Source: Paraburkholderia phytofirmans OLGA172 (GTDB lineage Bacteria > Pseudomonadota > Gammaproteobacteria > Burkholderiales > Burkholderiaceae). Taken from it: a stretch of 64,000 bases of DNA. Location: positions 372,001 to 436,000 of the forward strand of contig NZ_CP014578.1 in assembly GCF_001634365.1 (NCBI RefSeq), written 5' to 3'. A program made the translations under genes and the position numbers. This document shows, in pieces, positions 8,221 to 38,153 of the stretch. How positions within the stretch are numbered: the stretch's first letter is position 1; each line of letters opens with the position of its first letter. The notes beneath the pieces are model-generated. The model searched no databases. It was given only the letters and a program-made list of their open reading frames with translations, and was not told where the DNA came from.

Positions 8221-9114
8221 TTAAGCCACTAACTTCGATGATTCGCCGATCTCGACCGGCGCATCGCGGTGCCGCACAATGACATTTGCCGAACTTGCGA
8301 GACGCGCGGCGAGCGTCTCCGCAATGAACACCGAGCGGTGTTGGCCGCCCGTGCAGCCGATCGCGACCGTCAGATAACTGCGATTGTCGTCACGGAAATG
8401 GGGTAGCCATTTGACGAGAAACTTTTCGATGTCGTCGATCATTTCATGCACGACCGGCAGCGCGTCGAGAAAATCAATCACCGGTTTGTCGAGGCCCGTG
8501 AGCGGCCGCAATTCATGATCGTAATACGGGTTCGGCAGCGTGCGTACGTCGAAAACGAAATCGGCGTCGAGCGGCACGCCGCGTTTAAAGCCGAAGGACT
8601 CGAACATCAGCACGAGCCCCGCATGTTCCTGCTCGATGAAGCGTTTGACCCATGCGCGCAACACGTTCGCGCGCAGATTGCTGGTGTCGATCTGATGGCC
8701 GAATTCGGCCAGGCCCGCTACGAGTTCGCGTTCGCGTTCAATCGCTTCGGCAAGCGACGTCAACAAGCCGACGTCCGCATCATGCGCGGTGGAACCGGAC
8801 AGCGGATGGCGGCGGCGCGTTTCGGAGAAGCGTTGAATCAGCGACTGCGTGCTGGCGTTCAGGAAGAGCACGCGCACGTCGTGGGCGCGCGACAGGTCGC
8901 GGATCATCGCTGGCATTTCGTCGAGCGAAGCGCTCGAACGCGCGTCGATGGCAACCGCGAGGCGTTCTTGGCCGTCGTCGGCGAGATAGTTGGCCAGTTG
9001 CGGCAAAAAACGCGGCGGCAGATTGTCGACGCAGTAATAGCCTGCGTCTTCAAGCGCGTTCAGGGCAACTGATTTGCCGGAGCCGGAAATACCGGTGATC
9101 AGGATTATGCGCAT
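8221..9114 (-). CDS. rapZ: RNase adapter protein RapZ (nucleotide-binding YvcJ family)
   Basis: In enterobacteria RapZ hands the GlmZ sRNA to RNase E and so controls glucosamine-6-phosphate synthase. That exact role is not proven in Burkholderiales. The 297-residue protein has a P-loop TGISGSGKS at residues 7-15, the YYCVDNLPP motif after it, and the C-terminal conserved [12 protein letters not shown] motif (about 258-269). It sits directly downstream of hprK in the PTS-Ntr cluster. Confidence 0.95.
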
Positions 9115-28327: not shown

Positions 28328-28867
28328 ATGGCATCCGTGAACAAGGTCATTCTCGTCGGCAATCTCGGAGCCGATCCGGAAGTCCGTTATCTTCCGAGCG
28401 GCGACGCAGTGGCGAACATCCGCCTTGCGACGACGGATCGGTACAAGGACAAAGCGTCCGGCGAAATGAAGGAAGCAACCGAATGGCACCGCGTGTCGTT
28501 CTTCGGCCGGCTCGCTGAAATCGTGTCCGAATATCTGAAGAAGGGCTCGTCGGTGTACCTGGAAGGGCGCATCCGCACCCGCAAGTGGCAGGCTCAGGAC
28601 GGCACCGACCGTTACTCGACCGAAATCGTTGCCGAGCAGATGCAAATGCTGGGTGGCCGTGGCGGCTCGATGGGCGGTGGCGGTGGCGACGAAGGTGGTT
28701 ATAGCCGCGGTGAGCCGTCGGAGCGTAGCGGCGGTGGCGGTGGTCGCGCGGTCGCGGGCGGCGCCGCTTCGCGTGGCGGTAGCGGTGGCGGCGGTGGTGG
28801 TTCGAGCCGTCCGAGCGCGCCGGCCGGCGGTGGGTTTGATGAGATGGACGACGATATTCCGTTCTAG
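28328..28867 (+). CDS. ssb: Single-stranded DNA-binding protein
   Basis: Essential ssDNA-binding protein for replication, repair and recombination. The 179-residue protein has the OB fold ([20 protein letters not shown] at the N terminus, [16 protein letters not shown] in the middle; about 1-110). A Gly-rich linker (about 115-165) and the conserved acidic tip DDDIPF follow. A CAGGAG ribosome site precedes the ATG. The 3' end is the insertion site of the mobile element. The last codons CCG-TTC-TAG lie inside an 8-bp direct repeat, so the C-terminal IPF tip, which binds partner proteins, is preserved after insertion. Confidence 0.98.
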
Positions 28868-28904
28868 AAGCTACTAAGGTAGATTTTTGTTGATTAGAGC
28901 CCGC
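28859..28904 (+). repeat. Left attachment-site copy (attL)
   Basis: Begins with CCGTTCTA inside the final ssb codons and runs to the terminator stem base GCCCGC. Aligned without gaps to 37245-37290 it matches 33 of 46 positions, and the first 8 are perfect. Upstream of CCGTTCTA the two loci are unrelated, which places the crossover there. Confidence 0.75.
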
Positions 28905-28929
28905 GTGCCCTCAGCACGCGGGCTTTTTC
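28898..28929 (+). terminator. Rho-independent terminator after ssb (element-supplied copy)
   Basis: An 11-bp perfect stem (28898-28908 with 28914-28924, AGCCCGCGTGC/GCACGCGGGCT) and a 5-base loop are followed by TTTTTCTTT. By the insertion model this terminator came with the element, and the chromosome's own ssb terminator now lies at 37284-37317. Confidence 0.9.
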
Positions 28930-29000
28930 TTTACCCACACTTTGTTTTATGTTCTAGTAGCGTCTTTACTCAACTACTACTTGGCAAAAACGGTGGGTAG

Positions 29001-30257
29001 ATGACGAGATTTGTCGCAAAGCGCATCAGGTTCCGGAACGGAGAGCATCACTCTGTGCTGAGTAGGCCCGGAGGCCTTCCGGTCCACGAAGCGACCCTGT
29101 ACTTGAACAAGTACCGCAAGCGCGGTCGAGCCGCCAACACGATTCATGGCATTTGCATGGTGTTGGCTTTGCTATACAGAGAGCTGGCTAAGCACAAAAT
29201 CGATTTGCTCGAACGATTGCGGGTCGGTCAGTTCCTGACGATACCTCAGCTCAACCGATTAGCCGATGCTGCTCAGTATCGAGTGGATGACCTGTCCTAC
29301 GAAGACGCAGAGGAACCAGGTACATCAAAAGTCATTGATATCCGACGAATCCGCATGCGTCGCAAAGCGGCAGTCGAGCAGGCCAAGGCGGTCAGCGTAG
29401 CTACCCAAGCCTCCCGACTTCGGTACATGGCGGATTTCCTGGAGTTCTTGGCGATGTATGTGGGTGCGACGCTGCCGGCGCCCCTGCGAAAGGAATTGGC
29501 GATTGAAAGCGCTCACGCGCTCAAAGCATTTCTGGCTCAAGTGCCCAAAGTCCCCAAGCGTGCCAAGCTCGGTGCCCGGGAGGGACTTTCTAAGGAGGAC
29601 CAGGACCGGCTCCTCGCTGTGGTTCGCCTAGACTCGCCCGACAACCCGTGGCAGCAAGGTTATGTCCGCTACCGGAATTGGCTGATGGTTGTGCTCTTGC
29701 TCGCGACCGGCATGCGTCGCGGCGAGTTGCTGGGCATTCAGCTTAAAGACCTCCATCAAAGCCTGCCCAAGCTGCGCATCATCCGGCGGGCCGATGCAAG
29801 TGAAGACCCCCGTCGCATTCAGCCGAATACCAAGACCAACGACCGAGAGGTGGAGGTGCGGCCGGAAATTATGCGGGCCGTCTGGAACTACATTAGGCGT
29901 CACAGAAAGAAAATCAAGGCCGCTCGCAAGCACCCGCAGCTCATCGTTACAGACGATGGCTACCCGTTGTCATTGGGTAGCGTCGACAAGATATTCCGGC
30001 AGCTTCGCGAGGCTTGCCCAGGCTTGCCCGTCACGCTGACGAGCCATGTGATGCGCCACACCTGGAATGAACGCTTCTCCGAGCAGGCTGAACTGCTGGG
30101 GCTGACGGATGCCGTCGAAGAGAAAGCCCGGAATGAACAGCAAGGGTGGACCGATAACTCGAAGTCCGCTGCAACCTATACCCGTCGTCACGCGAGCCGT
30201 AAAGGACGGGAAGTCTCCCTGAAACTACAAGAACAGCTCGATGTTACAGACAAATGA
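29001..30257 (+). CDS. Tyrosine-type site-specific recombinase 1 of the trio
   Basis: A 418-residue integrase, the first gene of the element and nearest to the left attachment site. The N-terminal 190 residues are a helical SAM-like/core-binding region, and the catalytic domain follows. Visible active-site residues are Arg239 in ATGMRRGELLG, His349 and Arg352 in SHVMRHTW, Trp383 in QQGWTD (at the second His/Trp position) and the nucleophile Tyr393 in ATYTRRH. All key residues are present, so it looks active. It overlaps the next gene by 17 bases. It converges in function with two further, quite different recombinases downstream, as in recombinase-trio and Tn554-like elements. Of the three it is the most ordinary integrase. 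Confidence 0.9.
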   Translation: MTRFVAKRIRFRNGEHHSVLSRPGGLPVHEATLYLNKYRKRGRAANTIHGICMVLALLYRELAKHKIDLLERLRVGQFLTIPQLNRLADAAQYRVDDLSYEDAEEPGTSKVIDIRRIRMRRKAAVEQAKAVSVATQASRLRYMADFLEFLAMYVGATLPAPLRKELAIESAHALKAFLAQVPKVPKRAKLGAREGLSKEDQDRLLAVVRLDSPDNPWQQGYVRYRNWLMVVLLLATGMRRGELLGIQLKDLHQSLPKLRIIRRADASEDPRRIQPNTKTNDREVEVRPEIMRAVWNYIRRHRKKIKAARKHPQLIVTDDGYPLSLGSVDKIFRQLREACPGLPVTLTSHVMRHTWNERFSEQAELLGLTDAVEEKARNEQQGWTDNSKSAATYTRRHASRKGREVSLKLQEQLDVTDK

Positions 30258-31779
30258 ACTGCGTTCCTCCACCGCTCTTGTTATTACTTTGCCCAAGCGT
30301 GTATTCACGCGCAGCAAGAGCAGCTTCGACCCAAACGACGACGTCTGGGAGTGGGCGGATGGCCCGGCGGACGCGTACATTGACTTTCGACGTTACAACA
30401 ACGGCTTCGAAGCGTTCGTTCCGTGGCTCAAGCATGCCCTGCTTCCGTTCGTCAAGGGGCACTCATCTGCGCATGTCATGAACCTGAATGGGGCGTTCAC
30501 CCATTTCGTAGACGCCATGCCGACATGCCCGGAAGGGGCCATTGGCGCGCAGCATATCTCCAACTACGCAGCCAAGCTGGGTGCTCACGAAATCGGGCGG
30601 CTCGGGACCCTCAACGGTCTGCTACAAAAGTGGGTGAACCTCGGTCTGCCCGGCGTCGAGCCGGAGTGTGCCACGTACTTGCTCGAGCGCAAGAAGCCCG
30701 GCAATGAGAAGGGCAAGGCGGTCAGGACGCGTGACCCAGTCGCAGGACCGCTGAGCGAGGAGGAATACACCGCGCTGTACTCGGCGGTCAACGCTGCCTA
30801 TGGTCGCGGTGAGTTACCGTTGTGGACGCTTCTGCTCACCAGACTACTCTTGGCGTGCGGCGGTCGTATCTCTCAATATGCTTCACTCAAACTCTGTGAC
30901 TTTGACAGCACGACGTTAGTGCTTAGCCTTCCTCAGGCCAAAACGGGCTTGGAGCACGCGCGAATCAGCTTCCTCGCGTTTGACATCAGTCCACAAACGG
31001 GACGGCTCATCGCAGACTATATAAGTGGTTTGCGCGAGGAGGAATACGACGACAACTCCGCCTTCTTCCCACAAGCCCTGGTCATGCCTCGGGGACCTCG
31101 CAAACAACGTCGGGCCATTGACGACCTGTTCTACGGGCATTGCACTCCGGAAACACTGTCGGCGTGGTTCAGTACCCTTATGACGGAAATTGCACCGCCA
31201 ACTTCCCGGCTCGACTTCGCGCCGACGCCTCTGACGGCACAGAGATTCCGGTACACCTTCGGCACCCGGCTAGCCGAGGAAGGTGCAAGCAAGGTAATCA
31301 TCGCGAACCGGATGGGCCATGCAGACCTCCAGCAGGTTGACGTCTATGTCGCAGCCTCTCCAAAGATTGTTGAAAACATCGACCGGGCTATGGGGGCTAT
31401 GCTTGCTCCGCTCGCCCAGGCTTTTAAAGGGCAGCTCGTGCTGGATGAGGAGCACACGACCCACAAGGGCGCTCCCGGGAGCCGTATCATTGACTTCCGG
31501 GTCTCAAAGGACCCGGTGGGTAGCTGCGCGGGACAAGGCAAAAGCTGTGCCTTCAACAAGCCGGTCGCCTGCTACGGATGCTTCCGGTTCGAGCCGTGGC
31601 TCGACGCTCCGCACGAGAAGGTGCTTGAGCGCCTGGAGTCTGAGCGGGAAAACTGGTCGGCGGACGACCGAATGGCGGCGGTGAATGATGAGCCCATCCG
31701 GGCAGTCAAGGAGGTCATCGCGCTTTGCGCCCAGGTTTGGCAGCAGCGTGCCGAACAGGAATCGGAGGCGGTGTCATGA
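30241..31779 (+). CDS. Tyrosine-type recombinase 2 of the trio, with Cys-rich tail
   Basis: A 512-residue integrase-like protein. Catalytic candidates are Arg209 (CGGRISQYASL), Arg337 in AQRFRYTF, His360 (RMGHADL) and Tyr369 (VDVYVAAS). The first His of the usual HxxR is Gln334 here, a notable departure. The C-terminal part after the catalytic domain has a Cys/His cluster (CAGQGKSCAF, then ACYGC and a downstream His, about residues 423-455) that looks like a zinc-binding module. It is of the kind seen at the end of Tn554-type TnpA/TnpB proteins. It overlaps recombinase 1 by 17 bases and recombinase 3 by ATGA, so translation is coupled. Confidence 0.88.
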   Translation: MLQTNELRSSTALVITLPKRVFTRSKSSFDPNDDVWEWADGPADAYIDFRRYNNGFEAFVPWLKHALLPFVKGHSSAHVMNLNGAFTHFVDAMPTCPEGAIGAQHISNYAAKLGAHEIGRLGTLNGLLQKWVNLGLPGVEPECATYLLERKKPGNEKGKAVRTRDPVAGPLSEEEYTALYSAVNAAYGRGELPLWTLLLTRLLLACGGRISQYASLKLCDFDSTTLVLSLPQAKTGLEHARISFLAFDISPQTGRLIADYISGLREEEYDDNSAFFPQALVMPRGPRKQRRAIDDLFYGHCTPETLSAWFSTLMTEIAPPTSRLDFAPTPLTAQRFRYTFGTRLAEEGASKVIIANRMGHADLQQVDVYVAASPKIVENIDRAMGAMLAPLAQAFKGQLVLDEEHTTHKGAPGSRIIDFRVSKDPVGSCAGQGKSCAFNKPVACYGCFRFEPWLDAPHEKVLERLESERENWSADDRMAAVNDEPIRAVKEVIALCAQVWQQRAEQESEAVS

Positions 31780-33809
31780 AAGCCCCAACTCCAGTACTCA
31801 ACTTTACGCCTCGGGCCGAATTAGCGCCCCTGGCCAACATCGAGGCCTTCGTGGCCCTCTGTAGGGACTCGGACGTGCTGGGTGCGCGGGGGCAGTTCGA
31901 CATAAACGTCTGGACGCTCGGATACTTCAAAGGACAGAACAAGGTGAACCGGGTGGTGTTCAGCACCCTTGCGGCGTCCCGCGAAGACAAGCCCGAGCCG
32001 AGTCTGCCGCATCCGTTCCTGGACTTTGCGAAAGCGACGCTTGTCTACCTTCACGACAAGAAGCCGGTAGAGTCGCAGGCGCCGCGCATTGCGGCGCTTC
32101 GATGCCTTGAAGCCGCCTTGCGCGAGTCAGGCAAAGGCTCGCGGCCGACGGCTGTCGACGAAGATGTGCTGGATAGCGCGGTCTTACTTGCTAGGGCGGT
32201 GGTAAATGGCAGGAAGGTTTCGCCGGCGGTGGCTTACCGGACCGCCGGTCAACTTCAATCTATCGCTGAGCTCATGCGCTCCAAGGGGTTTATCCACCTC
32301 CGTCAACGCTGGACGCATGGCCTCAAAAAGCCCGACGAAAGAGGGTCTCGTATCTCGCAGGAGGCCCTGACGGCTCGGCAGGAGAAGCTGCCTTCCGCCG
32401 CCACGCTCCGTGCGCTCGGAGCCATCTTCCATGATGCCATCGAGCCTCCCGATGTCATGGTGTCGAGCGTCACCGGCCTGTTGCTCTGTGCGCCGGAGCG
32501 CATCAACGAAGTGATTCGGCTTCGCCGCAACTGCCTGGTTGAGGGCGACGGCGAATATCGTGGGAAGCTGGGGCTACGGTGGTCCGGGTCAAAGGGGGCA
32601 GAGGACACCACGAAGTGGCTCCCCACGGAAATGGTGCCCATCGCACGCAAGGCGGTCGCAAACATCATCGAGGTGACGACACCGGCCCAGAAGTTGGCGG
32701 CCTGGTACACGGAGAACCCTGAGAAGCTGTACCTCCACGAGGGGGCTGTGCATCTTCGCGACAAGAAGGTCCTGACGTTGGAGGGAATCGGTCTCATCCT
32801 GTGGGGTGATGCGACGGCGAGCGGACCGGCCAACACCTGGGCTCAAAACAAAAACAGGCGACTGCCCAAGCAGCCGCTCGGCGGACGCAGTATTGGCTAT
32901 CTCTTTGAGGATGTCGAGCGGGCTGTCGTTGCCCTGCTGCCCGAGACCTTCCCTTACGTACCGGGCGCCTCCGACCGGCTGTGCCGTGAGTCCATGTCCA
33001 TCATGCTCATGAACGAAATGCATTCGCAGAAGGCGACATACCTTTGCATGTTCAGTTGCGTTGACACCGACACTATCACCAACCACTACGGGGCGCGCAA
33101 GGGTCGAGTCTCCATCTTCAAACGCTTCCATTACACCGAGGACGACGGCTCGCCTATCGAGCTTCAAAGTCACAGCTTGCGCCATTACCTGAACATGTTG
33201 GCGCAGACCGGCGGCTTGAGCAGCACCGAAATTGCCATCTTCTCCGGTCGGAAGGACGTGAAGCAGAACCGCGCCTACGACCATATGACCTCGGATGAGG
33301 TGCAGGCGCCCATCAGTAAGGCATTGAAGGACGGGTTCACCTCAGAATTGGAACCGGTCTTCACCAGGCGTGACCTAGTTACGCGCGGCGAGTTCAAAGG
33401 CCTGGGGCTGACGGCGGCACATACGACCCAATACGGCTGGTGCGAACACGACTTCGCGAGCGAGCCGTGTCAGATGTACCGCGACTGCGTTAACTGCGAG
33501 GAGCAGGAGTGCATCAAGGGAGAGACGCAGAAGGAAGCGAACCTTCGCATGCTCAAGAGCGAGACCGAGTACCTGTTAAAGCAGGCCAAGGAAGCCTTGA
33601 GCGAAGAAGAGTACGGTGCCGATACCTGGGTCAAGCACCAGACGCTGACGCTCGAACGAGTCAACGCCCTCCTGTCGATTCTCGAGGACCCGGCGGTACC
33701 CGCTGGAGCGCGGATTCGTCTGGACGTGGACAACGCTCCGCTCATCACAACCGACAATGTTCACCCTGTCAGGTTTGTCCGGACTACGCGGCGAAAGGTA
33801 CTTGCATGA
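31776..33809 (+). CDS. Tyrosine-type recombinase 3 of the trio, large, with Cys-rich tail
   Basis: A 677-residue protein, twice the length of a simple integrase. Catalytic candidates are Arg242 (CAPERINEVI), His466 and Arg469 in SHSLRHYL, and Tyr501 (NRAYDHM). The usual second His is replaced by Arg492 (FSGRKDV). A Cys cluster follows (WCEHDFASEPC and CVNCEEQEC, about residues 560-590), then a helical tail. Start 31776 was chosen because its ATG overlaps the previous stop (ATGA), and the open frame upstream is inside gene 2. It is of the general kind found as the large integrase of multi-integrase elements (TnpB of Tn554, GmtZ-like). That placement is from pattern memory, not from a search. 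Confidence 0.85.
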   Translation: MKAPTPVLNFTPRAELAPLANIEAFVALCRDSDVLGARGQFDINVWTLGYFKGQNKVNRVVFSTLAASREDKPEPSLPHPFLDFAKATLVYLHDKKPVESQAPRIAALRCLEAALRESGKGSRPTAVDEDVLDSAVLLARAVVNGRKVSPAVAYRTAGQLQSIAELMRSKGFIHLRQRWTHGLKKPDERGSRISQEALTARQEKLPSAATLRALGAIFHDAIEPPDVMVSSVTGLLLCAPERINEVIRLRRNCLVEGDGEYRGKLGLRWSGSKGAEDTTKWLPTEMVPIARKAVANIIEVTTPAQKLAAWYTENPEKLYLHEGAVHLRDKKVLTLEGIGLILWGDATASGPANTWAQNKNRRLPKQPLGGRSIGYLFEDVERAVVALLPETFPYVPGASDRLCRESMSIMLMNEMHSQKATYLCMFSCVDTDTITNHYGARKGRVSIFKRFHYTEDDGSPIELQSHSLRHYLNMLAQTGGLSSTEIAIFSGRKDVKQNRAYDHMTSDEVQAPISKALKDGFTSELEPVFTRRDLVTRGEFKGLGLTAAHTTQYGWCEHDFASEPCQMYRDCVNCEEQECIKGETQKEANLRMLKSETEYLLKQAKEALSEEEYGADTWVKHQTLTLERVNALLSILEDPAVPAGARIRLDVDNAPLITTDNVHPVRFVRTTRRKVLA

Positions 33810-34240
33810 AAAAGAACCGGGCACCAGACCTAACCGACGAGCGCATTGCAAAAATCCTTGAAACGTTGGACACATGGAAAGGCAAGCTTACGTGGGAGCT
33901 CTTGCTGGATGCGGTCCAGGCGGCGACCGGCTACCGATACTCGCGATTTACGTTCGCGGAATACCCTCAAATTGCGAATGCGTTCTCGCTCAAGAAGGAC
34001 GTGTTGCGCGGTACTTTGCCACATGAACGAGGCGAGCCTCGGGATGAACGGGTTCGTGCGGCTCTCGAGCAGGTCTCCCGCTATAAAGCGAAAGCCGAAC
34101 GGCTGGAAGCAGAGAACCAGCTCCTGAACGAGCAGTTCCTGACGTGGGCGACTAACGCCGAGCGCAAGGGCGTCACGATGGACATGTTGAATGCCCCGCT
34201 CCCGAAGCCGGAGCGCGACCGTTCGAAAGGAGCCAAGTGA
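33806..34240 (+). CDS. Small element protein with C-terminal coiled coil
   Basis: A 144-residue protein. The first 70 residues look like a compact helical, possibly winged-helix, DNA-binding region (LTWELLLDAVQAATGYRYSR). Residues about 85-115 form a coiled coil (VSRYKAKAERLEAENQLLNEQ). The C terminus is basic and Pro-rich. The start overlaps the recombinase 3 stop as ATGA. Position and design are like the small TnpC-type accessory proteins of Tn554-like elements, which influence transposition frequency and orientation. The function here is inferred from position only. Confidence 0.75.
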   Translation: MKKNRAPDLTDERIAKILETLDTWKGKLTWELLLDAVQAATGYRYSRFTFAEYPQIANAFSLKKDVLRGTLPHERGEPRDERVRAALEQVSRYKAKAERLEAENQLLNEQFLTWATNAERKGVTMDMLNAPLPKPERDRSKGAK

Positions 34241-34677
34241 TGGCAAGCGGACAGCAGGTCGCCGAGGAGAATGTGCGTCGGTTCACGACCTGGGCGGCAT
34301 CGAGGACCGACGAGGACTTCCGGAACATGGTGACGCGAGGCGTCCTGTCGCGCACGGAAATCGCGGCAGAGTGTGGGTTTGCGAAATCGGCGCTCGCGCA
34401 GAATCCACGGATTCGGGATGCGCTCAAGAACCTGGAGGCGGACCTGCGCGAGCGTGGCGTGCTTCCGCAGCTTGTGTCGGGAGACGAGCCGGAAGCGTCG
34501 CCGCTCAGACTCCGAGCCGCTGAGTCACCTCGCGCGGCTCAGGATGCTGAGCGCCTTTCTCGCCTGGAGCAGGAGAACGCGAGCCTGAAGGCGGAGAATG
34601 CCGAGCTCAAGCGCATGTTAGGCCGTTACGCGGTGCTTCAGGAGGTCCTCGCGGAAACGGGGAGGCTTCCTCGGTGA
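34240..34677 (+). CDS. Small element protein, DNA-binding-like with leucine-zipper tail
   Basis: A 145-residue protein. The first half (FTTWAASRTDEDFRNMV...LSRTEIAAECGFAKSALAQNP) contains a plausible helix-turn-helix (LSRTEIAAECGFAKSAL). The C-terminal third is a coiled coil (ERLSRLEQENASLKAENAELK). A GTG at 34237 could also start it; the ATG at 34240 has AAGGAG at good spacing and overlaps the previous stop by one base. It resembles what I remember of the VPA1267-type proteins found with multi-integrase elements, an uncertain recollection. It is probably an accessory or regulator of recombination. Confidence 0.72.
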   Translation: MASGQQVAEENVRRFTTWAASRTDEDFRNMVTRGVLSRTEIAAECGFAKSALAQNPRIRDALKNLEADLRERGVLPQLVSGDEPEASPLRLRAAESPRAAQDAERLSRLEQENASLKAENAELKRMLGRYAVLQEVLAETGRLPR

Positions 34678-36920
34678 GCGACCCTACGAACGTCACGCTG
34701 CGTGTGACGGGGGTCAGGTCTCAGAACCCTCGAGGCTTCGGCGGAGCCATCTTCACCGGGGTTCCCGTCGATGCTACTGGGTCTGTCCTTGACGCGTGCA
34801 CTTATGTCGTCGTCAAGGCGACCCGGGCTACCCTTGGCGGAACAAAGGTCGAGCGAGGCCAATGGTGGACGGTTGCAGGACAGCTGGTTGAGCGCCGGTC
34901 CGTGGTTGACGGCTTCGAGCTGGTTGAGCAGCAGGTCGATGCGGAGGTCGCGTATCTCGCCCGCCCGACCGGCGAGCATCTCGTCACGTTCATTGCCGAG
35001 AACCCCGCCTTCGAGGGACTCGGAACAGTCAAAGCCAGACGGCTCTGGGAGCGCTTCGGCGAGCAGTTGTATCAATTGCTGGACGCGGCCGACCCGTCGC
35101 CGTTCGCCGACGTCCTCTCTGCTGCGGCAGCTCAGCGTCTGGTTGAGGCCTGGGCTTGTCACGGCGAGTCCCGCACCCTTCAGTGGCTTCAGGCCGCTGG
35201 CTTCGACATCGGACTGGGACGGAAGGTGCTGCGGTACTTCGGTGGTGAAGCGCAAGCTCGCATTGAGGAAGACCCCTATCGCCTGCTATCGTTTGCCGGC
35301 AAATGGTCGACCGTCGACCTGATGGCACAAACGCAGTTCGGCGTTCAGTCCGACGACCCTCGCCGGCTGCGGGGAGCCGGCGAGGAGGCGTGCTATCGGA
35401 TGTTCGCCGCCGGCCACACGGCAATGCTGTCGGCGGACCTGGTCGAGCAGGTCGCCCCGCTGCTGGGACGACCGCCAGTCGGCGTTCAATGGCGAGATTT
35501 GCTCGCGACCGCCGTGTCGGAGGGCCTCAAAAGCGGCCACATCGTTCAGACGCAGCACGGCCTGCAACCGCTGGGCGCTCTGGTTATGGAGCGTCAGGTA
35601 GCCAAGGCTATCCAGGAGCGTTTGACCGGCGGCATCGAGCGACTGCTTCCTGGTCATCGGGTCGAGCGAATCATCACGGCTTGCGAAGCTGAAGACGGCA
35701 TTGAGCTGAACCCGGAGCAGCGGAATGCTATCAGGATGGCCGACGAGTACGCGTTTGCCTGCATCACCGGTGGGGCTGGCGTGGGCAAGACGACCGTGCT
35801 CAGGTCGTTGTGTCGGCTGTATCAGGACGCAGGAACCAAAGTGCTACAGGTGGCACTTGCAGGACGCGCAGCGAAGCGGATGCAGGAAGCCACTGGTCTG
35901 CCCGCATTCACGATTGCCAGCTTCCTTAAGAGCGTCAACAACCTGACCTTCGATGGTCCCACGGTGTTGGTCATCGATGAGGCGAGCATGGTTGACATCG
36001 TCTCGATGAGCCGCCTGTGCCAGGCGCTACTTCCTCACGTACGACTCGTTCTCGTTGGTGACCCCTACCAGCTCATGCCGGTCGGGCCTGGTCTCGTCCT
36101 TCACTGTGTCATGAGGGTGCCACGCATTCCCTCGACCGAGCTCAAGACCGTGAAGCGCTATGGAGGGGAGATTGCCGCCGTGGCTTCGGCCGTGCGGGAG
36201 GGGGTGTGGCCGAGCATCTCTGCCGACGAGACGGCGTCCGTTGCCTTCATCCATTGTGATGACCGGCAAATCGCGGAAAGAGTGGCGGACCTTTATGCCG
36301 TCGATACCGCTGGCACGCAGGTCCTTGCGCCGCTGCGAAACGGCCCGGCAGGGACCAAGGTACTCAACCAGGTCTGCCAGCAGCGATTCACCGGCGACGG
36401 GCCAACTGTGACTCGGTGGAACGACGAGTTCGACAGGCCTGAGTACTGTGGTTTCAACCTTGGAGATGTCGTTCTCTGCACTCGCAACCTCTGGGACAAA
36501 GGACTGCAGAACGGGTCAATGGGTCGGGTTGTGGAGGTCGAATCCCTCGCTACCAAGCCCAGCGATGACGCTGAACGGGTGCTGGCCTGGGTCGAGTGGG
36601 ACGATGGCGTTTGCCGGGAGCTCACGTCCGAGATGCTTGAGGATGTCGAGCTCGGGTTCGCGGCGACGGTTCACAAGGCCCAAGGCTCTCAGTGGCGCCG
36701 CGTCATCATCCCGGTCACCAGGTCAAGGCTGCTGGACCGAACGCTGTTATACACAGCCCTCACTCGTGCCCAGGTTCAGGTCATCCTGGTCGGAGACGTC
36801 GAGGCCGCCCAAAAGGCAGTGGAAGCCCCGCCGAAGGCACACAGTCGAAAGGTAGCGTTGGACCTAGCCTTGATGCATTACCTCATGCAAGCCGACGATA
36901 ATGTCCTTCTGCCGGCCTGA
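34674..36920 (+). CDS. RecD2-like superfamily 1B DNA helicase
   Basis: A 748-residue 5'-3' helicase of RecD2 type. The N-terminal region has helix-hairpin-helix-like elements (EGLGTVKARRLWERFG, about 112-127, then the IEEDPYRLL motif near 200). The motor shows Walker A CITGGAGVGKTTVL (about 363-376), Walker B VLVIDEASMVDI (about 431-442), motif III LVLVGDPYQLMPVGPG and motif VI LYTALTRAQVQVI (about 691-703), preceded by ATVHKAQGSQW. The GTG start has GGGGAGG upstream and overlaps the preceding stop (GTGA). Coupling to the recombinase genes suggests a part in excision or insertion, or in replication of the free element. It could instead be cargo such as an anti-phage helicase, but no partner gene is present. 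Confidence 0.9.
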   Translation: MSDPTNVTLRVTGVRSQNPRGFGGAIFTGVPVDATGSVLDACTYVVVKATRATLGGTKVERGQWWTVAGQLVERRSVVDGFELVEQQVDAEVAYLARPTGEHLVTFIAENPAFEGLGTVKARRLWERFGEQLYQLLDAADPSPFADVLSAAAAQRLVEAWACHGESRTLQWLQAAGFDIGLGRKVLRYFGGEAQARIEEDPYRLLSFAGKWSTVDLMAQTQFGVQSDDPRRLRGAGEEACYRMFAAGHTAMLSADLVEQVAPLLGRPPVGVQWRDLLATAVSEGLKSGHIVQTQHGLQPLGALVMERQVAKAIQERLTGGIERLLPGHRVERIITACEAEDGIELNPEQRNAIRMADEYAFACITGGAGVGKTTVLRSLCRLYQDAGTKVLQVALAGRAAKRMQEATGLPAFTIASFLKSVNNLTFDGPTVLVIDEASMVDIVSMSRLCQALLPHVRLVLVGDPYQLMPVGPGLVLHCVMRVPRIPSTELKTVKRYGGEIAAVASAVREGVWPSISADETASVAFIHCDDRQIAERVADLYAVDTAGTQVLAPLRNGPAGTKVLNQVCQQRFTGDGPTVTRWNDEFDRPEYCGFNLGDVVLCTRNLWDKGLQNGSMGRVVEVESLATKPSDDAERVLAWVEWDDGVCRELTSEMLEDVELGFAATVHKAQGSQWRRVIIPVTRSRLLDRTLLYTALTRAQVQVILVGDVEAAQKAVEAPPKAHSRKVALDLALMHYLMQADDNVLLPA

Positions 36921-37244
36921 CCGGTGCGACGACACATGACGAGTCAAGGGCGGGCGCCAGCCCGGCGAAGCGAACCCTTGACCGCTGATGGTTTGCCACG
37001 CTGTGGCTGGGTTGGAAGCTCGGCATTCTCGTGCTTCCAACCATGCCATACCGCAGCGCTGTTCGCTATGATTACGCAAAGTCGTCCCTTGAGCGCGTAC
37101 CCACAAATTCAGGTCAGAAGGCGGTTTCCACGAGAATTTGGGGCGTTGTGGGCACATTACCAACAACTGTGTGAAACACAAACCTCCGAAAGGCCGGCAC
37201 TCACTCACATCCAGCGCGCTATCAACACTTTTTAGTAACCATAA
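36921..37244. other. Non-coding right end of the element, rich in inverted repeats
   Basis: About 320 bases from the helicase stop to the right attachment site. GTCAAGGG (36943-36950) pairs with CCCTTGAC (36975-36982). GGTTGGAAGC (37010-37019) pairs with GCTTCCAACC (37033-37042), extendable to 14 of 16 pairs over 37004-37048. Neither has a T run. This could be a recombinase-binding or transfer site, or a structured RNA. An open frame on the plus strand (36924-37235) has no ribosome site and crosses both inverted repeats, so I do not call it. Confidence 0.6.
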
Positions 37245-37290
37245 CCGTTCTAAATCTGACTAAAGCAGTTTTTCGTTGGTAGAAGCCCGC
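37245..37290 (+). repeat. Right attachment-site copy (attR)
   Basis: CCGTTCTAAATC repeats the end of ssb (Pro-Phe-stop, here with TAA). Followed without gaps by sequence similar to that after ssb, it ends in the terminator stem base. By the model this is the original chromosomal ssb 3' flank. TTTAGT (37231-37236) and ACTAAA (37259-37264) form an inverted pair centred on the core, as core-type recombinase sites do. Confidence 0.75.
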
Positions 37291-37317
37291 CCTCCCATAG
37301 AGAGCGGGCTTTTTTGT
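37284..37317 (+). terminator. Rho-independent terminator, probably the original ssb terminator
   Basis: AGCCCGC (37284-37290) pairs with GCGGGCT (37304-37310), followed by TTTTTT. It lies at the same distance from CCGTTCTA as the terminator behind ssb does on the left. It now ends transcription from the element. Confidence 0.85.
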
Positions 37318-37352
37318 TCACATCCCGACTTTTCTCGTCACCAAAAACCCCG

Positions 37353-38153
37353 TCACCGGCGAAGATGCTCCAGCGCGTCTCTCATCGGCAAACTGGACAC
37401 GACAATCGGCCCGGTGAATGGTGTATCCAGATCGACAATCACATAGATAGCGGAAGCAATCGATACTGCTCCGATGGAGATAGTCACCAACGCCAACGCA
37501 TTGCGCGGCGCGATCAATCCGAAGCTGAGAAAAATCACGCACAACCAGAACGTCAGCGTCATCAAAAAAGGCATAGAAATTGAGCTGTGCGCTTCCTCGA
37601 TGATCTTCCATCGAGCGTCCACCGTTCGCCGATATTGAGTCAAGGCATCATCGAGCGCGCGCTGTTGTAATGGGTCGTGCGCTCGCAGTTGCCGCAACTG
37701 CCTGCCCACCGCGGTCAGCATATCGCCGAGCCGTACGTTCTCCAGTTTCTGCGAGTCGTCCTGGGTTCCGATGTTCCTCGGATAGTCACCGGCTGGAGCC
37801 GGCTCGCCCGGCCATGTCGATGCAATCGCCGCTGCGGTGTACACGCGCAGCAGGTTACGAGCCTCATCGGTATCGCTGCCATATTCCCGCAAGGTCGTGT
37901 CGAACTCGATCAGATCGGCCGCATAGGTGCGTAAATCATTCGATTCGGTATCGAAGCTGGATTTCGCGGACGCCGTCATCAACCCGAGCACCAAAGCGGC
38001 AAACGTCACCAGCATGCCGATAACCAGCTGGATGAGTTGTACGGTTTCGTGTGCCTTGTGCTCCTCTGGCAGCAAGGGGCGCACCCACACGCCAAAGCCG
38101 GTTCCGACAAGCAATAAAGCGAAAACCAGCAGGGCCGAGCCTATTTCTGACAT
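37353..38153 (-). CDS. DUF4239 (bestrophin-like) membrane protein
   Basis: A 266-residue inner-membrane protein with a span at the N terminus (about 6-25), a second (IQLVIGMLVTFAALVLGLMTA, about 41-61), a long soluble region with helices (65-195), and two C-terminal spans (LMTLTFWLCVIFLSFGLIA and ALVTISIGAVSIASAIYVIVDL). The layout and the D-LDTPF-G motif near the end are those of DUF4239 proteins, which show remote likeness to bestrophin channels. The function is not known. It converges with the mobile element across the native ssb terminator and is divergent from the chemoreceptor gene. Confidence 0.82.
   Translation of the reverse strand: MSEIGSALLVFALLLVGTGFGVWVRPLLPEEHKAHETVQLIQLVIGMLVTFAALVLGLMTASAKSSFDTESNDLRTYAADLIEFDTTLREYGSDTDEARNLLRVYTAAAIASTWPGEPAPAGDYPRNIGTQDDSQKLENVRLGDMLTAVGRQLRQLRAHDPLQQRALDDALTQYRRTVDARWKIIEEAHSSISMPFLMTLTFWLCVIFLSFGLIAPRNALALVTISIGAVSIASAIYVIVDLDTPFTGPIVVSSLPMRDALEHLRR

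Follow-up and report, generated by a model that had tools for sequence, protein, structure and literature searches.

In Paraburkholderia phytofirmans OLGA172, the gene ssb is followed by six overlapping genes, three of them for recombinases or a recombinase-like protein, lying between two copies of the eight-base sequence CCGTTCTA; the question raised by this locus is what element these genes form and what it recognises at the end of ssb. The first-pass annotation of the stretch analysed here (64,000 nt, hereafter the window) described a three-recombinase mobile element at ssb that keeps the Ile-Pro-Phe tip of the protein and supplies a new stop codon, TAG, and a new terminator, a description that our analysis supports. 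Here, by comparing sequences, we show the boundaries of the element, its two insertions in this genome, the conservation of the tip, a fossil match beyond its right end, its operon and a right-end motif. We propose with considerable confidence that it is a compact member of the GInt class that inserts through GinA–D at the codons of the SSB tip, keeping the tip, replacing the stop codon and terminator and, by repeated visits, leaving fossils.

The left copy of CCGTTCTA spans the ssb codons for Pro-Phe and the TA of the stop codon, and the right copy lies 8,386 bp away, defining a unit of 28859–37252 with both cores included. The 46-base stretches starting at each core are equal at 33 positions (25 of 38 past the core), a match reached in none of 100,000 trials that shuffled the 38 bases following the right core (maximum 32). 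Bases 28867–28904 find their best ungapped match elsewhere in the window at 37253 (25 of 38; next best 21), and both cores are followed by a terminator at equal offset. The 8-mer by itself means little, occurring three times on the plus strand and once on the minus strand of the window for an expectation of 0.83 per strand. The strongest evidence for the unit is a second copy outside the window, on the opposite strand at C1:1310541-1318938, that is identical at 8,394 of 8,394 bases. To the left of the left core the copies share 0 bp and to the right of the right core 1 bp, so that the ends of the unit are fixed independently. The repeat, spacing, 33-of-46 match and paired terminators reported in the first-pass annotation have thus withstood re-reading, shuffling and comparison with the second copy.

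At its second location the element continues in frame from the end of a non-SSB gene of 370 aa whose product terminates in ...KDMVDIPF; Pfam gives this protein no family that passes the cut-off (DUF4145 reaches E 0.06). Its relatives at 68–81% identity end in VDIPF and, in three genomes (69% identity), these residues are encoded by other codons (GACATTCCCTTC) with the element absent from the 130 bases past the stop, indicating that the tip predates the insertion. Of 347 homologs found, 120 were listed, and among those 120 the protein ends in PF in 75, in I/L/V-PF in 66 and in IPF in 38; after clustering at 70%, PF ends 50 of 83 representatives, and it occupies 0.3% of internal positions. The tip of this family, an apparent mimic of that of SSB, looks selected at the protein level. 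An AbiU2/HEPN gene (L140:3137-3937) lies about 2 kb from the 370-aa gene.

Across the 8.57-Mb genome, the pattern for Asp-Ile-Pro-Phe-stop, GAYATHCCNTTYTRR, occurs three times, and once when read backwards. Both sites that contain CCGTTCTA, those of ssb and the 370-aa gene, are occupied; the third, with core CCTTTCTGA, has no element. This third site ends the gene for a 365-aa protein without a Pfam family (...WADDIPF; L231:6738-7835, minus strand, G000:C2 near 286.7 kb), another possible SSB-tip mimic, which adjoins a C5 cytosine DNA methylase gene. Past the core, the right flank of the second insertion (ACTCGTC...) agrees with that of ssb at a single base before the two diverge, which means that recognition need involve no more than the tip side; the recognised half-site would most simply be the tip codons plus TA.

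A similar arrangement recurs in related operons. A scan with a 16-sequence GinC alignment against a genome collection (84,980 species by its own description) gave 79 survey loci, the best of 202 confirmed stretches. For the 63 that contain ginA preceded by 250 bp or more of sequence, we asked whether an open frame of 60 codons or more ended in an SSB-type tip, which was so upstream of ginA in 49 (DDDIPF in 41). The stop codon of the tip gene, TAG in 28 of these, TAA in 11 and TGA in 10, lies 130–160 bp from ginA in 43 of the 49, compared with about 137 bp in the window. The suggestion in the first-pass annotation that the same trio might sit at ssb elsewhere therefore fits most of the operons, with no tip gene seen in the other 14.

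Those 14 are among several observations that weigh against recognition of tip DNA, which is itself a correlation. Three of them (L154, L197, L200) are too short upstream to satisfy the 60-codon rule, two (L167, L177) are downstream units of tandems, L199 has ssb 954 bp away, L185 (...DQDLPC) and L204 (...NRLTF) stand at other gene ends, and the remainder are without explanation. Insertion can do without the CCG codon, since attL of an element in genome G030 reads CCTTTC, yet the third tip site of the OLGA172 genome, likewise with CCTTTC, is empty. No empty version of the second site was found in the same species, where the site is seen only occupied, and the identity of the copies could reflect a second element that arrived recently or an artefact of assembly. 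Poorer resemblance at the gene ends of at least two related elements, L185 and L204, would also suit the view that chance brought the second insertion to an SSB-like tip, with a recombinase that needs only CCGTTCTA and a loose flank and a gene ending that has no meaning. We consider this improbable, given that both tip-pattern sites with CCGTTCTA in the genome are occupied and that PF is so much more frequent at the ends of the mimic family than within it.

The ends of the relatives suggest which bases the element brings. Left and right cores are unequal in five of the six elements with both ends read, being equal in the window only, consistent with a staggered exchange in which ssb retains the host Pro-Phe codons. 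These codons are probably the host's own, in which case the element brings a stop codon and 3′ untranslated region and not a copy of the gene end. The analogy drawn earlier with islands that restore their target gene by a carried copy thus survives for the stop codon and 3′ untranslated region and probably not for Pro-Phe. The elements read at both ends measure 8,276 and 8,192 bp (the tandem L099), 8,358 bp (L101 and L117), 8,411 bp (L106) and 8,386 bp (the window); three others are estimated at about 8.2–8.4 kb (L155, L161, L187) and six at about 9.7–13 kb (L160, L163, L169, L170, L182, L186). A compact six-gene form of 8.2–8.4 kb recurs. By the right core of 12 of 25 recD-bearing loci stands a variable signature, CACTCACTCACA ... 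TTTTTAGT ... ATAACC; three of these 12 (L152, L153, L167) are L101, L106 and the second element of L099, already counted. As we read the window element, TTAGTA and TACTAA would border the core at the junction of a circle.

Beyond the right core, the terminator that had been taken for the native ssb 3′ end is probably the fossil left end of an older GInt, because the same sequence precedes ginA elsewhere. Bases 37253–37315 match the left end of the second G030 element at 93% over 67 bases, in a position between tandem elements and ahead of the second ginA, and match at 89% in G006 and 87% in G039, both with ginA 137 bp from the stop. When the 3′ regions of 122 of the 144 genus genomes were scored against 37254–37314, eight reached at least 72 (shuffles at most 22), two of them with ginA 137 bp downstream and six without; ginA lies within 400 bp of ssb in 14 of the 122. 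Many other genus genomes carry different terminators, and one type that is common by eye follows the right end of the second G030 element. The window would thus probably hold one GInt inserted ahead of the remnant of another. Tandem GInts occur at ssb in G030 (L099, a pair of different subtypes) and in Tepidimonas fonticaldi (L175/L177). The interval from ssb to the flank gene ranges in the genus from about 0.1 to more than 80 kb, often with other insertions in which no gin genes were detectable.

Some of the evidence points the other way, to a terminator that is native to the ssb 3′ end in this lineage and was captured by GInts as their left end; the first-pass model, of ssb and its own terminator split by one element, would then stand. 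The continuous junction which that model predicted is present in G055 (ssb DNA 95% identical), where ssb, CCGTTCTAATTCTGACTAAAA and a similar terminator lead to the flank gene without an intervening element. In G131 a weaker form of the terminator is in one piece with the flank, again without ginA, and both genomes thus carry the flank sequence as a native terminator would. The fossil assignment, moreover, rests on about 60 bases, and the scores grade from 92 downwards with no sharp gap (G131 53, G028 50, G135 46). Against a native origin speak the presence of the same sequence between the core and ginA of other GInts (G006, G039, the second G030 element) and the different terminator, of a type common by eye, after the right end of the second G030 element. 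In G054, the noncoding 3′ stretch is 90% identical, against only 80% in ssb coding DNA, and in G018 an unrelated terminator is joined to a downstream flank that by eye resembles that of G055. We therefore judge a native terminator unlikely and favour a fossil left end.

Duplication by the cell or gene conversion, rather than movement of the element, could account for identity at all 8,394 bases, but is very improbable because the identity stops with the element and the sequences on either side of the copies are different.

The features of the element and its surroundings are collected in Table 1. In GinA, R239, R352, W383 and Y393 are invariant and H349 nearly so (12 of 12 aligned sequences). 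By eye, GinB keeps R209, R337 and H360, and Y369 nearly so, with the first histidine of the usual box not conserved. For GinC, neither Pfam nor NCBIfam yields a family up to E 0.1; R242, H466, R469 and Y501 are invariant in 16 of 16 aligned sequences, and the first, third and fourth of these align with GinB R209, R337 and Y369 in a weak profile match (probability 23%). Homologs of the ginD candidate were not detected by tblastn in L104 and L105, and the helicase scores 354 bits against TIGR01448, under the cut-off of 500.

Table 1. Features of the element, its flanks and its second target. Coordinates without a contig prefix are positions in the 64,000-nt window.
Feature	Position	Strand	Basis or remark
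ssb, target gene, 179 aa, end DDDIPF, element-supplied stop TAG	28328..28867	+	Pfam SSB 5.6e-40; NF005406 327.5 bits
attL, left core CCGTTCTA	28859..28866	+	identity with second copy starts at 28859
Left end: arm TACTAA (28872-28877), intrinsic terminator (about 28900-28929)	28867..28930	+	sequence reading
ginA, tyrosine recombinase, 418 aa	29001..30257	+	Phage_integrase 2.4e-11; R239, H349, R352, W383, Y393
ginB, tyrosine recombinase, 512 aa	30241..31779	+	Phage_integrase 1.7e-12; NF041502 354 bits (cut-off 350)
ginC, diverged recombinase-like protein, 677 aa	31776..33809	+	conserved residues, weak profile match to GinB
ginD candidate, 144 aa	33806..34240	+	placed after ginC; homologs after ginC in related operons (tblastn)
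VPA1267-family protein, 145 aa	34240..34677	+	NF040697 200 bits (cut-off 90)
RecD2-like SF1B helicase, 748 aa	34674..36920	+	AAA_30 7.4e-40; HHH_RecD2 6.5e-11
Structured noncoding region, two strong hairpins	36937..37053	+	similar to three other places in the genome
Right end: CACTCACTCACATCC ... TTAGTA (37232-37237) ... CATAA	37198..37244	+	signature recurs in other elements
attR, right core CCGTTCTA	37245..37252	+	sequence reading, copy comparison
Probable fossil left end (terminator) of older GInt, other subtype	37253..37315	+	match to left ends elsewhere
Chromosomal flank gene beyond element, 266 aa	37353..38153	-	DNA 37253-37900 matched in 108/144 genus genomes, including those matching the first 62 bases only or in pieces
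Target gene of second copy, 370 aa	L140:31-1143 = G000:C1:1318933-1320042	-	all-helical family
Repeated structured noncoding sequence	window 36937-37053; L313:6236-6353; L312:6791-6836; L314:5965-6052		near several mobile loci

The element is a real and recently moved member of the published class GInt, the Tn6571 family of transposons (PMC10121019), a filing that rests on organisation and on ssb targeting. In Bardaji et al. 2017 (PMC5385486), six of 11 GInts lie within ssb, where attL reaches into the end of the gene with no change of product, ginA–D are all required and the direct repeats are imperfect and 10–17 nt long. Like these, the window element stands at the ssb end with the product unaltered and has three recombinase genes and a small gene in one operon by its left attachment site, in an order shared by related loci. 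Its flanking direct repeats comprise 8–9 exact bases inside the 33-of-46 match, with ends equal in the two copies, and its 3′ end is AT-rich (the final 100 bp have 46% GC, the element as a whole 60%), as is the left end (28867–29000, 45% GC). An ssb-targeting integrase trio is thus already published, and the finding as first stated, an undescribed system, is not new.

The window element departs from the GInts of that account in being only 8.4 kb long and made up of six overlapping genes without larger cargo, in placing its second copy in a non-SSB gene and in having a recurrent right-end motif, where the same text reports no common feature at the GInt 3′ end. Its GinC may also differ from that of the two GInt papers, which describe the protein as without one or more catalytic residues, in that R, H, R and Y are conserved at positions resembling those of a recombinase. 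With the strand-biased circularizing integrative elements (SEs), as portrayed in the sections of PMC10214605 we draw on, it shares a four-gene recombination core, a host spacer apparently kept at attL with the element spacer at attR, and possible copy-out movement. The SE order, however, is intA-tfp-intB-srap, whereas the protein without an integrase domain comes third here, not second, and the same sections place SE and GInt proteins in separate clusters. New are the second target with its tip mimic, the SSB-type tip genes ahead of ginA in most related operons, the motif at the right end of the compact subfamily, terminators that are probably fossil, and a pair of genes found also in another kind of element, the gamma-mobile-trio (GMT).

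That pair, the VPA1267-family protein and the RecD2-like helicase, stands in 22 of 71 survey loci with enough downstream sequence, and also behind GmtXYZ-like genes elsewhere in this genome (L312:6843-14906, minus strand; G000:C1 about 500.8–508.9 kb). This GMT-like locus matches GmtY at 212.8 bits, GmtZ at 301.9 and GmtX at 36.2, all under the cut-offs of 340, 600 and 40, and its VPA1267-family protein scores 162.6 (cut-off 90). The occurrence of the pair in both loci makes it look like a portable module of two kinds of multi-recombinase element, one that may act in replication of an intermediate. The helicase that the first-pass annotation counted as part of the system is thus present, but as half of a pair common to another element type. 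GMT islands, two identical ones of which occupy different places in one isolate according to PMC12039261, likewise carry several recombinases. Despite this shared pair, it is extremely unlikely that the window element is a GMT or a RIT rather than a GInt: GinB reaches 16 bits with the GmtY model NF040693, whose cut-off is 340, none of the element proteins has a GmtX or GmtZ model among its hits up to E 0.1, the recombinases of 418, 512 and 677 aa exceed the 315–410 aa of the RIT archetype as PMC10214605 outlines it, and in place of its 34-bp inverted terminal repeats no long one was seen, the terminal arms matching at 3 of 18 positions unshifted.

The noncoding sequence behind the helicase gene (36930–37060, fold z-score −4.21) recurs in part after the helicase of the GMT-like locus and at two further places. 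The copy in L314 follows two 626-aa open reading frames that are recombinase-like by eye and match no NCBIfam model.

Taken together, these data suggest how the element may move. GinA–D would join a circular junction, in which the arms TTAGTA and TACTAA flank the core CCGTTCTA, to a half-site on the chromosome formed by the SSB C-terminal tip codons, GAT-ATY-CCG-TTC-TA, with movement by copy-out or cut-and-paste. With the crossover inside the 8-base core, the host would keep Asp-Ile-Pro-Phe and gain the stop codon and terminator of the element. Because the protein tip of SSB is under strong selection, its DNA would be a dependable target across species, and other genes encoding the same tip would also be usable, as the SSB-tip-mimic gene with the second copy may illustrate. 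Repeated visits at ssb would build tandems and leave fossil left ends and, as each rewrites the stop codon and terminator, turn the ssb 3′ end in part of the genus into a patchwork of GInt left ends. The fullest version, in which tip codons serve as an address wherever present, both exact sites (GATATYCCGTTCTA) are filled, the mimic family is marked and the ssb 3′ end is a patchwork, seems to us evenly poised between true and false.

This genome naturally harbours two identical GInts of full length, in a class whose full-length transposition was still termed undemonstrated in 2023 in the text consulted from PMC10214605. Its target would be explained by the codons of a protein tip and not by a particular gene, and the recombinase system, with its compact ends and target, would lend itself to a two-plasmid assay. 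If this is true, the element marks an unrecognised family of proteins (about 370 aa, all-helical, no Pfam) with an SSB-tip mimic that presumably docks on SSB partner proteins, and would provide a route to discovering further SSB-tip-mimic proteins.

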